A stretch of DNA of 64,000 bases, from positions 1,302,001 through 1,366,000 of the forward strand of contig NZ_JQMV01000003.1 of the NCBI RefSeq assembly GCF_000744885.1, in the 5' to 3' direction. A program made the position numbers and the translations under genes. Of this stretch, positions 43,802 to 63,958 are shown one piece after another. How positions within the stretch are numbered: position 1 is the stretch's first letter; the number at the start of each line of letters is the position of its first letter. This DNA comes from Thermus amyloliquefaciens. GTDB taxonomy: Bacteria; Deinococcota; Deinococci; Deinococcales; Thermaceae. Under the pieces are notes generated by a model. The model searched no databases, had not been told where the DNA came from, and worked only from the letters and a program-made list of their open reading frames with translations.

Positions 43802-44104
43802 TTAGCCCCAGCCCAGGAGCCGCCGGGCCTCCGGGGAAAGCCGGGCCGGGGTCCAAGGGGGTTCAAAGGTGAGTTCCACCTCTACCTCCTCCACGCCCGG
43901 GATGCGGCTTAAGGCCTGCCGCACCGCATCCCCCATGCTGTCGTGCAGGGGGCAGCCCGGGGTGGTGAGGGTCATGCGCACATAGGCCCTAGGGGGATCC
44001 ACCTTAAGCTCGTAGATGAGCCCCAGGTTCACCACGTCCAGGCCCAGCTCCGGGTCGTAGACCGTGCGCAAAAGGTTCCACGCCTGCTCCTCCAAAGGGT
44101 TCAT
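43802..44104 (-). CDS. DUF59 (MIP18/PaaD-like) iron-sulfur assembly factor
   Basis: This 100-residue protein has the DUF59 core ([22 protein letters not shown], then [22 protein letters not shown]), including the conserved Cys used in Fe-S cluster delivery. It is translationally coupled (ATGA) to the frameshifted membrane protein gene upstream and lies behind an FNR-type box. A role in maturing Fe-S proteins such as nitrate reductase or an NO-related enzyme is inference. Confidence 0.87.
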
Positions 44105-45249
44105 CGCCGCATCACCTCCCAAAGGGCGTAAACATGGGGAAAAACGCCGGCGAGGTAGATCCACCCCGCCCAGGGAAGGAAGGGAAGAAGAAGCGCCCCC
44201 ACGGCCAACAAAGCCCCTGCCCCATACCCCGCGCCCTCCGGGAGCATCTCCTTGAGCAGGGGCACCTTCTCCTTCCCCGCCCTCGGGGCATACCGGTGGG
44301 TCCAGACCAAAAAGGGCAGGATCTTGTAGAGCATCCCCGTCACCACCAGCCCCACGAAACCCAAGGCGAACCAAAGGGCTGCCCAGACCGGTTGAAAGGG
44401 CAGAGCCAGGAGGGCAAGGCCCAGGAAGAAAAGGCCCAGGAGGTAGTGCCGCACCCCGATGTCCAGGGCCTTTTTCATACGGTTTTTGAGGATGCGCCCG
44501 GTGTCGTAGAGGGCGAGGGCATAGGCCAAAAGGAGGAGGAGATAGCCCAGCCTCTCCCCCATGGCCAGACCCAGAAGCCCCAGGTTGGCCGCCCAGAGGA
44601 AAAGCCCCAAGACCCGCTCGTCCACCCCGTGGGTGAGGGTGAACATGGAAAGGAGCTTAAACCCCACCCCCAGGATGGAGAGGAGGAAGACCCCACCCAA
44701 ACCGGCAAGGAGGTGCCAGACCAGCCTTTCCGGGTCGTAAAAGCCGTAGCGCTGGGAAAGGGCCTGCAAAAGGCCCAAGAGAGGGGTGAGGACCAGGTAG
44801 AAGACCACCCAGGCCAAGGCGGTGGCCACCCGGTTCCAACGGGGGCTTGGCGGAAGGTGAGGTAGGCGTGGTAGGCGAAAAAGAGCAGGGCCACAAGGGT
44901 CAGGGCCCCCCCACCGGGACCAGAAGGGGCGCTTGGGCGAAGCCCAAGGCCAGAAGGAAAACCCCCAGGCCCCACAGGGCCATCACCGGATACCCCCATT
45001 CCGGGCGAAAGAGGGGCGCCTCCAGGACCACCGGCAAAAGCTGGTGCATGGCCCCGAGGAGCACCCCCACCCCAAAGCCCAGGAGGAACAGGTGGGCCAC
45101 GGCCAAACCCAAGGGTGCCGGGGTAAGGAAAGCGCCTCCGGATGAAGGGCCAGAAGAAGGCCGGCCGCCAGGAAAAACCCCTCTCCCCAAAAGATGAAAC
45201 CGGCGGGGATGGCGAGGGGGATCACGCGGGTATGGGCCGTGGCCAACAT
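44101..45249 (-). pseudogene. Heme-copper-oxidase subunit I-like membrane protein with three frameshifts
   Basis: Four reading-frame segments together describe one polytopic protein of about 385 residues, from ATG 45249 to 44101. The segments join if one base is added at each of three homopolymers: A3 at 45129-45131, C7 at 44906-44912 and G5 at 44841-44845. The composite has about ten membrane segments with conserved His/Gln patterns ([37 protein letters not shown]), like the heme-binding helices of oxidase/NO-reductase subunit I. It may be an NnrS- or CcoN-like NO-related protein. Because all three defects are single losses in homopolymers, it may be intact in the organism. Confidence 0.6.
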
Positions 45250-45284: not shown

Positions 45285-45298
45285 ATGACCCAGGTCAA
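45285..45298 (-). promoter_or_regulatory. FNR-type box 1, upstream of the membrane protein-DUF59 operon
   Basis: In gene direction TTGACCTGGGTCAT fits TTGAY-N4-RTCAW. Its centre is 42.5 bp before ATG 45249, with a possible -10 (AAGATT or GATTAA) directly upstream of the start codon. Confidence 0.68.
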
Positions 45299-45306
45299 GA
45301 CCCCCC

Positions 45307-46149
45307 TCAGCGGCCCGGGGGCAGGAGGGTGAGGAGGTCCCCCTCCCCCAAGGGGGTGGCCAGGCCCTCGAGGTAGCGCACATCCCGGCCATTGAGCAAC
45401 ACCGCCCAGCGGGGCCTAAACCGCCAGAGGGTCTTGGGCTCCAACCAAAGGCCCACCTCCTCCTCGGCGGCCACGGCCTCCAGGGCCAAGTCCCTTAGGG
45501 CGGGGTTCACGGCAAAGGCCTTGAGGAGGGCTTCCCCCACGCTACCCGCCCGCAGGGAAAGGGGCTTGGGCAAGGCAGGGTAGGCCAGGCCCAAGGCCTG
45601 GAAGCGCACGGCCACCCTACCCTCCCTCAGGGCCAAGGCCGCATCAAACCCCTTCCGCATCACCTCCTCCTGGGCGGCCAGGTAGACGAGCCATGGGCGC
45701 ACGTCCCGCACCCTCTCCGCCACGTACCGCCCCACCTGGGCAAAGGAAAGGCCCACGTACTCCGGAGGGATATGGGCCCCCTTCGGGCCAAGCCCCCCGT
45801 GCCAAAGCCCTGCCCGGTACACCTCCCGGGCAAACTCCGCCGAGGTGTCCACGCCAAGGGTGCGGGCCAGCCAAGCGGAGAAGAAGGCCCGCCTGAGGTA
45901 AAGCTCCTCCTCCGGCACCCTGCCCTCCCAACCCAGGGCCCGGGCGGTACCCGGGTGGCGGCTCAGATGGTCGTACACCCCGGCCACAAAGGCCGCGGCC
46001 CCCTCCAGGAGCCTTTCCGCATCCAGGCGCATGGCCCGCTTCGCCTCCTCCCCAAGACCGCCAAAGGCGAGAAGGTCGGCGAAAACCGCCTCCGGTAGCG
46101 GCGGCAGGTCTAGAACCAGGGCCTCCTCACGCCACACCACCCCCTTCAT
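45307..46149 (-). CDS. Sensor-globin domain fused to a MoaD-like beta-grasp domain (predicted)
   Basis: In this 280-residue protein residues about 30-175 are all-helical and read like a protoglobin/globin-coupled-sensor fold, with His117 in YRAGLWHGGL as candidate proximal heme ligand followed by IPPEYVGLSFAQVGRYV. Residues 178-280 match a MoaD/ThiS ubiquitin-like fold: RVAVRFQALGL, SVGEALLKAF, WAVLLNGRDVRYL, PLGEGDLLTLLPP. The C-terminus is PPGR and not the Gly-Gly that MoaD needs for thiocarboxylation. I know of no described family with this pairing. The ATG overlaps the stop of a short upstream frame. The fusion is seen in sequence; heme binding and function are inference. Confidence 0.72.
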   Translation of the reverse strand: MKGVVWREEALVLDLPPLPEAVFADLLAFGGLGEEAKRAMRLDAERLLEGAAAFVAGVYDHLSRHPGTARALGWEGRVPEEELYLRRAFFSAWLARTLGVDTSAEFAREVYRAGLWHGGLGPKGAHIPPEYVGLSFAQVGRYVAERVRDVRPWLVYLAAQEEVMRKGFDAALALREGRVAVRFQALGLAYPALPKPLSLRAGSVGEALLKAFAVNPALRDLALEAVAAEEEVGLWLEPKTLWRFRPRWAVLLNGRDVRYLEGLATPLGEGDLLTLLPPGR

Positions 46150-46403
46150 CCTCCCCTCCTTTCCCGTTCCTCCCGCATTTTCCTCAGCATATCCCCCGTG
46201 CCCACCCGCCTACGCAGGGCGCGGGCGAAGGCCAGGAGCCGCAACCCTCCATCCGCAGGAAGAAGCCCACCAGCCCCGCATGCGCGTGGGAGGGGCGGAA
46301 GGGCCCCCCAGGCTGGGGAAGGGGTAAGAGAGGGTGCCCCGGAGGGCGGTGTATGGCGGTAGAAAGGGACCGCCCAGACGAAGAGGAAGTGCCAAAAGCC
46401 CAC
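46146..46403 (-). other. Region between the DUF2249 gene and the globin fusion; uncertain, possibly decayed reading frame
   Basis: About 285 bp separate the DUF1858/DUF2249 stop (46433) from the globin start. One open frame ends in RRRVGTGDMLRKMREERER and its TGA overlaps the globin ATG, which looks like translational coupling. Its middle part, however, is proline-rich in the way typical of a shadow frame. Switching frames twice gives a more hydrophobic composite containing HAHAGLVGFF. I cannot decide between a small broken gene and untranslated leader. Confidence 0.3.
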
Positions 46404-46432: not shown

Positions 46433-47227
46433 CTAGCCCCCCTTGCGGATCAGGATCTCCACCCGCCCCGGGCCGAGGTCCTTCAGCAGGTAGGCGTGCC
46501 CCTCCTCCTCGAGGCGGGCCAGGAGGTGCACCGGGCGGCGCACGTGGTGGACCAGAAGCTTCTCCCCAGGCTTGAGGCCAGCCAAAGCCTCCAGGACCCG
46601 CATCATGGGCAGGGGGGGCTCGAGGTTCTCCTCAATCTGGACCTCCGCCTGGTAGTCCTCCCAGTCCCCTTCGCTCAAGGGGCCGGGGCCTGCGGCCACC
46701 CCTCGCCCTTCCCCAAACTGCTGGCGGTAGAAGTGAACGCGGTAATGCCTCTCCCCCAGCCGCTCGCACCAGGCCAAAAAGCCTTGCTTCCCCAGGACCT
46801 TGTAAAGGGGGATGGGCTCAAAGAGCACCTCCAAAACCAGCCTCTTCCCGGGTTCCACCTCCTGGGCCGCCGCCATGATGGCCTGGAAGGGCTCCCCGCC
46901 CCGCTCCAGGATGGGCCGCACGTCCAGCTGGAAGCCAACGGGGGCCGATAACCAAGAAGGCGGCGGGGTGCCGAGGAGGCTTTCCGCCTGCCCTATGGGC
47001 ACCTCCGGCCTGGCCTCCACCCCCAGGGCCCGGTTCAAGCGGGCCACCAGCTCCTCAGGCTCCAGCCCCCCCATCCTGGCCGCCTGGGCCACGGTGACCA
47101 GATTGGGCATGGTCTTGCGCAGAAGGGGGTTCTTGAGCTTCTGGAAAACGGGGCTTGCCTCCACCAGGACCTGAAGGAGCTCTGGCCAGCGCCTTAGGAC
47201 CTCGGCCACCTTCATCTCGGGGTGCAC
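46433..47227 (-). CDS. DUF1858-DUF2249-DUF2249 protein
   Basis: This 264-residue protein has an N-terminal DUF1858 helix bundle (MKVAEVLRRWPELLQVLVEASP, related to the ScdA N-terminus) and then two DUF2249 alpha-beta domains (about 95-170 and 185-264, the latter with ALAGLKPGEKLLVHHVRRPVHL). DUF2249 genes cluster with nitrite and NO metabolism in many bacteria. GTG 47227 overlaps the stop of the upstream single-DUF2249 gene (TAGTG); ATG 47254 would extend it by nine residues. It is probably part of the operon behind FNR-type box 2. Confidence 0.82.
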   Translation of the reverse strand: MHPEMKVAEVLRRWPELLQVLVEASPVFQKLKNPLLRKTMPNLVTVAQAARMGGLEPEELVARLNRALGVEARPEVPIGQAESLLGTPPPSWLSAPVGFQLDVRPILERGGEPFQAIMAAAQEVEPGKRLVLEVLFEPIPLYKVLGKQGFLAWCERLGERHYRVHFYRQQFGEGRGVAAGPGPLSEGDWEDYQAEVQIEENLEPPLPMMRVLEALAGLKPGEKLLVHHVRRPVHLLARLEEEGHAYLLKDLGPGRVEILIRKGG

Positions 47228-47445
47228 TACCGCTTGCCGATCCTCACCCGCCATACCTCCGGTCCCTCCTCCAGGTACGCCCAGTCCACCTGCCCCGGCC
47301 TTTCCGCCATGAGCTGGTAGTAAAGGGGCTTGGGATCGTGGTCGTTGACCAAGACCAAGCTCTCCCCAGGCTTCAGGCTGTCAAAAAGGGCAAAGATCCG
47401 GGGGTGCCGTTCCCGTGGGGGTAAGGTGCGCACATCCAGCTCCAT
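47227..47445 (-). CDS. DUF2249 protein
   Basis: This 72-residue single-domain protein has the DUF2249 signature (LDVRTLPPRERHPRIFALFDSL, then LVNDHDPKPLYYQLMAERPG). It is homologous to the two C-terminal domains of the next gene. It begins the operon that runs to the globin-MoaD gene, and its ATG lies 41.5 bp from the centre of FNR-type box 2. The molecular function of this family is not established. Confidence 0.85.
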   Translation of the reverse strand: MELDVRTLPPRERHPRIFALFDSLKPGESLVLVNDHDPKPLYYQLMAERPGQVDWAYLEEGPEVWRVRIGKR

Positions 47446-47479: not shown

Positions 47480-47493
47480 ATGACCTGGGTCAT
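47480..47493 (-). promoter_or_regulatory. FNR-type box 2, upstream of the DUF2249 operon
   Basis: ATGACCTGGGTCAT is a 14-bp near-perfect palindrome (only the central CTGG breaks symmetry). Its centre is exactly 41.5 bp upstream of ATG 47445, the class II activator position if the message is leaderless. Confidence 0.72.
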
Positions 47494-60271: not shown

Positions 60272-60285
60272 ATGACGGAGGTCAA
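60272..60285 (-). promoter_or_regulatory. FNR-type box 3, upstream of the ferredoxin gene
   Basis: In gene direction TTGACCTCCGTCAT fits TTGAY-N4-RTCAW. It lies between the divergent ferredoxin and redoxin genes, 52.5 bp from the ferredoxin ATG and 65.5 bp from the redoxin ATG. Confidence 0.6.
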
Positions 60286-60964: not shown

Positions 60965-60993
60965 TTGACGAGACCACGGGGGGATGCTATTAT
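60965..60993 (+). promoter_or_regulatory. Promoter of the protoglobin-P460 operon
   Basis: TTGACG (60965-60970), 17-bp spacer and TATTAT (60988-60993) are close to consensus. The start near 61000 gives a leader of about 17 nt with AAGGAGGT as ribosome site. Confidence 0.8.
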
Positions 60994-61016
60994 TTAGGAG
61001 TCCTAAGGAGGTGCCC

Positions 61017-61601
61017 ATGCCGCAGATACCGGGCTACACCTACGGGGATCCTGCCCTTCCGCCCTCACCGGTTTCCTTGGAGGAACTGGAACGCCTAAAG
61101 GCGTGCCTCCTCTGGACCGAGGAGGATGACAAGGCCCTGGAACAAGCAGGTAAAGTGCTGGAAGACCAGGTGGAAGAGGTGCTGGACCTTTGGTACGGCT
61201 TTGTGGGAAGCCATCCCCACCTCCTCCACTACTTCACAGACCCTCAAGGCAACCCCATTCCGGACTACCTGGAAAGGGTGCGGCGGCGCTTCGGCCAATG
61301 GATCCTGGACACCTGCTTCCGCCCCAAGGACGAGACCTGGCTCCGTTACCAGCACGAGATAGGCCTGCGCCACCACCGAACCAAGAAGAATCAGACGGAT
61401 GGGGTGACCTCCGTGCCGCACATCCCCTTGCGCTACCTTATTTCCTTCATCTATCCCATCACTGCTACCATAAAGCCCTTCCTAACCAAGAAGGGCCATA
61501 ACCCAGAAGAGGTGGAAAGGATGTACCAAGCCTGGTTCAAAGCCGTGGTGCTCCAGGTGGCCCTTTGGTCCTACCCATACACCCAACCGGGGGATTTTTA
61601 G
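61017..61601 (+). CDS. Protoglobin
   Basis: This 194-residue single-domain heme protein matches the protoglobin family throughout: DKALEQAGKVLEDQVEEVLD, the proximal-His region YQHEIGLRHHRTKKN (His119 or His120) and the C-terminal MYQAWFKAVVLQVALW. The archaeal protoglobin of Methanosarcina uses His120. Protoglobins bind O2, CO and NO; here the neighbour is cytochrome P460 and the nar genes are close, so NO handling is a reasonable inference. Confidence 0.93.
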   Translation: MPQIPGYTYGDPALPPSPVSLEELERLKACLLWTEEDDKALEQAGKVLEDQVEEVLDLWYGFVGSHPHLLHYFTDPQGNPIPDYLERVRRRFGQWILDTCFRPKDETWLRYQHEIGLRHHRTKKNQTDGVTSVPHIPLRYLISFIYPITATIKPFLTKKGHNPEEVERMYQAWFKAVVLQVALWSYPYTQPGDF

Positions 61602-63944: not shown

Positions 63945-63958
63945 ATGACCGGGGTCAA
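63945..63958 (-). promoter_or_regulatory. FNR-type box 4, upstream of the radical SAM gene
   Basis: In gene direction TTGACCCCGGTCAT fits TTGAY-N4-RTCAW. The centre is 43.5 bp before ATG 63908, with TACCCT as candidate -10 close to the start codon. Confidence 0.68.

Follow-up and report, generated by a model that had tools for sequence, protein, structure and literature searches.

A protoglobin-type globin fused to a MoaD-like domain with a changed C-terminus is conserved in Thermus, beside drpAB, and in a second Thermales family

The 64-kb stretch of Thermus amyloliquefaciens DNA analyzed in this work, hereafter the window, includes a gene (positions 45307 to 46149, minus strand) with an ATG start and an open reading frame of 280 amino acids, the product of which joins a globin of the protoglobin type to a MoaD-like domain. 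This pairing is real, it is conserved in Thermus and in a second family of the Thermales, and it is apparently undescribed so far. Literature searches on protoglobins or globin-coupled sensors with MoaD gave no description of it, in agreement with an earlier reading of this DNA made from its letters alone (the sequence-only reading), and the β-grasp reviews checked include no mention of a globin. The NCBI label for the Thermus orthologs, of which that of T. thermophilus is WP_014511187.1, is ‘protoglobin domain-containing protein’, where the MoaD half is unnamed. We establish here the architecture of the protein, its conserved candidate haem ligands, the loss of its tail, the selection that acts on it, and the synteny and co-occurrence of its gene. 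The role that we consider likeliest would be the sensing of a gas in connection with orf144, a membrane protein, and in Thermus with the Drp circuit as well.

Of the 19 further Thermus genomes with the gene, 18 have the fused ORF unbroken, as do 12 genomes of the second Thermales family. An artefact of assembly, frameshift or joining was rejected on the basis of these 30 genomes from two families, and the possibility raised at the outset, that two separate genes had been joined here by an error, finds no counterpart in them. The single Thermus exception is that of T. parvatiensis (G016), where the gene is frameshifted and seems to be split because the replicon is full of indels. In this replicon, pTP143 (G016:C2), NarI, NarO and DrpB are frameshifted together with the fusion gene, which points to an indel-rich assembly. 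Purifying selection acts on both halves: compared with the remaining Thermus copies, the globin part has a median dN/dS of 0.095 and the MoaD part one of 0.205.

The globin domain encompasses residues about 20 to 178 (45616 to 46092, minus strand). As the sequence-only reading had proposed for the N-terminal half, there is a match to PF11563 (Pfam Protoglobin) over residues 22 to 147, with an E value of 2.8e-9 and a score of 37.6 bits versus a cut-off of 25. The same profile matches all 29 aligned homologues when matches are counted at E 0.1 or better, and hhalign gave 92% to the Thermus globins. The residue previously singled out as a candidate proximal ligand, His117 (codon at 45799 to 45801, minus strand), is the only invariant histidine in the 29 sequences and aligns with the GLRH of the canonical protoglobin and the GLVH of the single-domain globins of Thermus. 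Tyr59 (codon at 45973 to 45975, minus strand), the predicted distal B-helix tyrosine, is one of three tyrosines invariant in the same set and is aligned with the WY of the canonical protoglobin, so that His117 and Tyr59 correspond in position to the proximal histidine and the B-helix tyrosine found in other Thermus protoglobins. On these sequence grounds the fusion protein can be assigned to the protoglobin family. The denitrification island encodes another globin, the canonical full-length protoglobin of the window (60984 to 61601, plus strand; PF11563 E 1.5e-35), after which comes a haem protein resembling cytochrome P460 (61609 to 62109; PF16694 E 1.4e-29).

Structure predictions for the whole protein and for the globin half used close relatives only, which led to low confidence. 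The globin half reached block pLDDT values of about 35 to 60, with a pLDDT of 45 for its separate model. Sensor globins or protoglobins made up all of the 12 best Foldseek matches of this low-confidence model (E values of 0.02 to 0.75); since the alignment behind the model included one protoglobin from the window, this result is concordant with the profile match and not independent of it. The informative parts of the models are the C-terminal half, the blocks of which mostly have pLDDT values of 63 to 79, and, for the rest, only the predicted overall order of the helices.

The C-terminal half, residues 179 to 280 with a domain at about 179 to 278 (45310 to 45615, minus strand), has a ubiquitin-like β-grasp fold of the MoaD/SAMP1 type. 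The PF02597 (ThiS) match of the window protein, E 0.0016, is below the cut-off, and 27 of the 29 homologues are matched by this profile with a best E value of 3.3e-6. The structure 1v8c, a Thermus MoaD-related protein, is matched at 2.7e-5, or at 6.2e-7 with the family profile, a profile-profile comparison with hhalign gave 98.3% to the Thermus MoaD-related family, and a Foldseek search with the model found 2l52 (SAMP1) at E 2e-4 and 1v8c at E 6e-4. The MoaD/ThiS pattern originally discerned in the letters is thus borne out by these comparisons.

The protein ends in PPGR (45310 to 45321, minus strand) where the paralogues read PPVAGG. That this end has no Gly-Gly had been noticed before, and it is invariant in 29 of 29 homologues. 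The tail lost by the MoaD-like domain is the one needed for the usual sulfur chemistry. Cysteine is missing from the window protein and occurs only three times in all 29 sequences; the loss of VAGG together with the absence of cysteines from the window protein and from nearly all of its homologues argues against sulfur transfer or conjugation, and an active sulfur carrier was rejected. The genome encodes four other ThiS-family proteins, and no moaE, moeB, thiF or moa gene was recognized in the annotated neighbourhoods of the fusion gene in Thermus or in genera g13 and g14 of the second family.

The location in a nitrate-respiration island was correctly identified beforehand, with nar genes nearby in the window and in the Thermus loci; what was overlooked is that the neighbours of the fusion gene are drpA and drpB, a published nitrate-sensing operon. 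The order on the minus strand of the window is narC-narGHJI, two MFS transporter genes, drpA, drpB, a remnant of orf144, the fusion gene, memb383 and a SufT-like gene, and dnrS, dnrT and further denitrification genes are found on the other side. Immediately downstream of nar, Thermus has a compact series of genes, drpA-drpB-orf144-globin/MoaD, in which the fusion gene comes fourth; the gene order is constant in all Thermus loci compared, and T. thermophilus has drpB, orf144 and the fusion gene either overlapping or separated by no more than 3 nt. The window drpA (47227 to 47445, minus strand) codes for a DUF2249 protein of 72 amino acids, which shares 86% identity with its counterpart at the drpA position in T. 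thermophilus SG0.5JP17-16 and fits the published description (PMC6282519), and drpB (46433 to 47254, minus strand) codes for a protein of 273 amino acids including a DUF1858 and two DUF2249 domains, with the size and domains reported in the same study. In T. thermophilus NAR1, drpAB is a DnrT-dependent operon required for nitrate control; the RT-PCR and the mutants of that work were confined to drpA and drpB, the next genes being outside of the study (PMC6282519).

The third gene, orf144, is intact in the other Thermus loci compared. Its product, a small protein of the membrane, has an HxH motif resembling that of COX1, and its match to PF00115 (E 6.8e-5) is below the cut-off. In the window strain the gene is broken by indels and a gap of about 170 to 180 nt, leaving fragments in several frames (46167 to 46403, minus strand). 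On the other side of the fusion gene, memb383 (44101 to 45249, minus strand), the gene for a polytopic membrane protein, shows three 1-base deletions beside G/C runs as compared with its relatives. These may be PacBio errors or real decay: the T. amyloliquefaciens genome was assembled from PacBio data (PMC4769583), and indel errors of this origin have been documented for Thermus (PMC7694296). The damage to orf144 is too large to be ascribed to such errors. The SufT-like gene (43802 to 44110, minus strand) codes for a SufT/MIP18-type Fe-S assembly protein (PF01883 E 1.1e-22).

An FNR/DNR-like palindrome is found at 47481 to 47492, with its center 41.5 nt before drpA, and a second copy follows the fusion gene at 45286 to 45297, with its center 42.5 nt before memb383 (no strand assigned to either). 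The 12-mer, TGACCTGGGTCA, has exactly two occurrences in the 64-kb window, which are these. A palindrome of the same class precedes drpA in 16 of 16 loci and memb383 in 13 of 16, and in these 16 loci it never precedes drpB, orf144 or the fusion gene, for which reason drpA-drpB-orf144-fusion looks like one unit. The pattern suggests two units, drpA-drpB-orf144-fusion and memb383-SufT, predicted to be under a regulator of the CRP/FNR family. DnrT belongs to the DNR subgroup (PMC5748679) and is the obvious candidate, because drp expression requires it (PMC6282519); we infer the assignment of the box to DnrT from this dependence. Palindromes of the type TTGAC-N4-GTCAT were also seen at 60272 to 60285, at a ferredoxin gene, and at 63945 to 63958, at a nirJ-like gene; the centers lie 41.5 to 43.5 nt before the start codons of drpA, memb383 and the nirJ-like gene and 52.5 nt before that of the ferredoxin gene. 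Together, the four palindromes of this type suggest a putative DnrT-type regulon. A scan with the sigma-70 consensus found no promoter.

A survey of Thermus genomes for the fusion and its PPGR end, as had been proposed, found the gene kept in 20 of 27, with PPGR in every aligned homologue. These 20 are exactly the genomes that have drpB, and the other 7 have neither gene (20/20 versus 0/7, Fisher p 1.1e-6 with shared ancestry ignored). Of the fusion-bearing Thermus genomes, 18 also have narG. The two without it are G021, where narGHJI has been lost and drpAB-orf144-fusion-memb383-SufT kept, and G009, the contig of which stops just past drpA. A further genome, G062, 98% complete, has the fusion gene and no narG. 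The second Thermales family has full-length homologues, at about 52 to 60% identity, in 12 genomes with or without narG, and there the gene is found away from nar and drp. In genus g13 it follows UspA-orf144, so that the pair formed by orf144 and the fusion gene recurs in this family, and in genus g14 (L121-L125) it lies after a ferredoxin gene and, where the next genes are covered, near hemC and a gene for a Fur-type regulator. An obligate role in nitrate respiration was rejected on account of these contexts and of G021. Several other Thermaceae have drpB, orf144, memb383 and SufT in a cluster, with the fusion gene absent from the drp loci. Outside of the Deinococcota no fusion was found in one plasmid collection, and a scan of close-relative genomes gave only Thermus; the restriction to Thermales rests on the Deinococcota, that collection and that scan, and is not proof of absence elsewhere.

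The fusion protein resembles the globin-coupled sensors and protoglobins (HemAT, DosC, AfGcHK, the M. acetivorans protoglobin) in its PF11563 match above the cut-off, in the alignable proximal His and B-helix Tyr, in having an N-terminal globin followed by another domain, and in that these proteins are the best structure matches of the low-confidence globin-half model. It differs from the sensors in its C-terminal domain, which is a MoaD-type β-grasp and not a methyl-accepting, cyclase, kinase or other known transmitter; no transmitter of a known type was found in the fusion protein or its homologues, only the ThiS/MoaD β-grasp. The same β-grasp domain and the common sequence GRDVRYLxGLxTPL...PP relate it to T. 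thermophilus 1v8c and archaeal SAMP1 (2l52). Unlike them, it ends in PPGR without VAGG, has an insertion before the last strands and carries a globin. With the DrpA/DrpB system of T. thermophilus NAR1 (PMC6282519) it shares the locus, the predicted transcription unit and, across the 27 Thermus genomes, a perfect co-occurrence with drpB, but it includes neither DUF2249 nor DUF1858 and is also found away from drp in the second family. As judged from these features, the protein with its lost tail is not a sulfur carrier and would fall outside the known classes of globin-coupled sensors.

The data suggest that the fusion protein is a component of a sensor that has escaped notice, and not an enzyme of the molybdenum cofactor. 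In the reading that we favor, to which we give an even chance, it would be a cytoplasmic haem globin with a non-conjugating β-grasp adaptor as output, which senses gas through the candidate residues His117 and Tyr59, signals to a partner and tunes the nitrate/NO response. The protein would be a cytoplasmic globin of the protoglobin/globin-sensor type, with an output module turned from the MoaD lineage into a non-conjugating, protein-binding adaptor. In Thermus it would probably be expressed as part of the drp transcription unit, which is anaerobic and depends on nitrate and DnrT, if co-transcribed as predicted. O2 or NO would most likely be bound through His117/Tyr59, and the β-grasp surface, together with the GRD...PPGR end that never varies, could relay the state of the ligand to a partner that would most likely be orf144 and/or DrpB. 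The nitrate/NO response would be tuned as a result, and a haem gas sensor would have been recruited in Thermus to the DnrT/Drp circuit. Some facts speak against this reading. The globin half gave poor models, the published drpAB phenotypes were explained without the fusion gene, the fusion gene does not always adjoin orf144 (part of the second family has ferredoxin and hemC genes there instead), and the window strain has an intact fusion gene and a destroyed orf144, yet the species converts nitrate to N2O (PMC4769583).

The globin half could alternatively be a scavenger of NO or O2, or an NO-dioxygenase-like haem protein, that protects the nitrate-respiring cell, the β-grasp serving only to anchor or stabilize it, e.g. 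at orf144 as an electron-supplying haem protein of the membrane. The haem-copper-oxidase-like orf144 next door (with its sub-threshold PF00115 match), the ferredoxin and hemC neighbours in one subfamily, and the nearby SufT-type Fe-S assembly protein, cytochrome P460 and second protoglobin, all of which fit nitrosative stress, lend this explanation some weight. We nevertheless hold it to be rather unlikely, as the presence of an output-like domain whose tail is invariant suggests a role beyond scavenging, the globin carries no reductase domain, and a canonical protoglobin of full length is already encoded in the island. A loss of haem binding by the globin half, with the entire protein acting as a structural adaptor comparable to a pseudo-globin or a stressosome-like module, would be in keeping with a modest PF11563 score and a match that stops before the last helices; it is made improbable by the low dN/dS of the globin half and by the candidate proximal His and B-helix Tyr, neither of which varies among the 29 sequences of the two families.

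The sequence-only reading had offered two functions, a gas-regulated supply of cofactor and a protein-protein adaptor. The adaptor is the best fit, and the supply of cofactor is without support because in the second family the gene lies away from nar and in the annotated neighbourhoods it is never beside moa genes. A related explanation, that a tailless MoaD acts as a decoy or regulator in sulfur-carrier biology which engages MoaE or MoeB/ThiF of the E1-like type and, when the globin binds gas, stops or gates the synthesis of Mo cofactor for NarG, starts from a clear MoaD-lineage domain without Gly-Gly and from the Mo-dependent nitrate reductase that adjoins it in Thermus. We consider it very improbable given the same neighbourhoods free of annotated moa and moe genes, the retention of the fusion in genomes without narG, its location in the second family, and the four additional ThiS-family proteins.

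How Thermus senses nitrate without NarX/NarL is a stated open question (PMC6282519). DrpA and DrpB have no identified signal chemistry, and a haem globin in the same predicted unit is a concrete candidate for a gas- or redox-sensing step. It is conceivable, and we advance it only tentatively, that the fusion proteins define a new class of globin-coupled sensors with a tailless, ubiquitin-lineage β-grasp as output, which in Thermus would form with orf144 and DrpA/B a membrane-associated nitrate/NO complex unrelated to NarXL, FNR and NnrR. The fusion protein also extends the apparent output modules of globins by a ubiquitin-lineage domain, the tail of which is invariant and non-conjugating.
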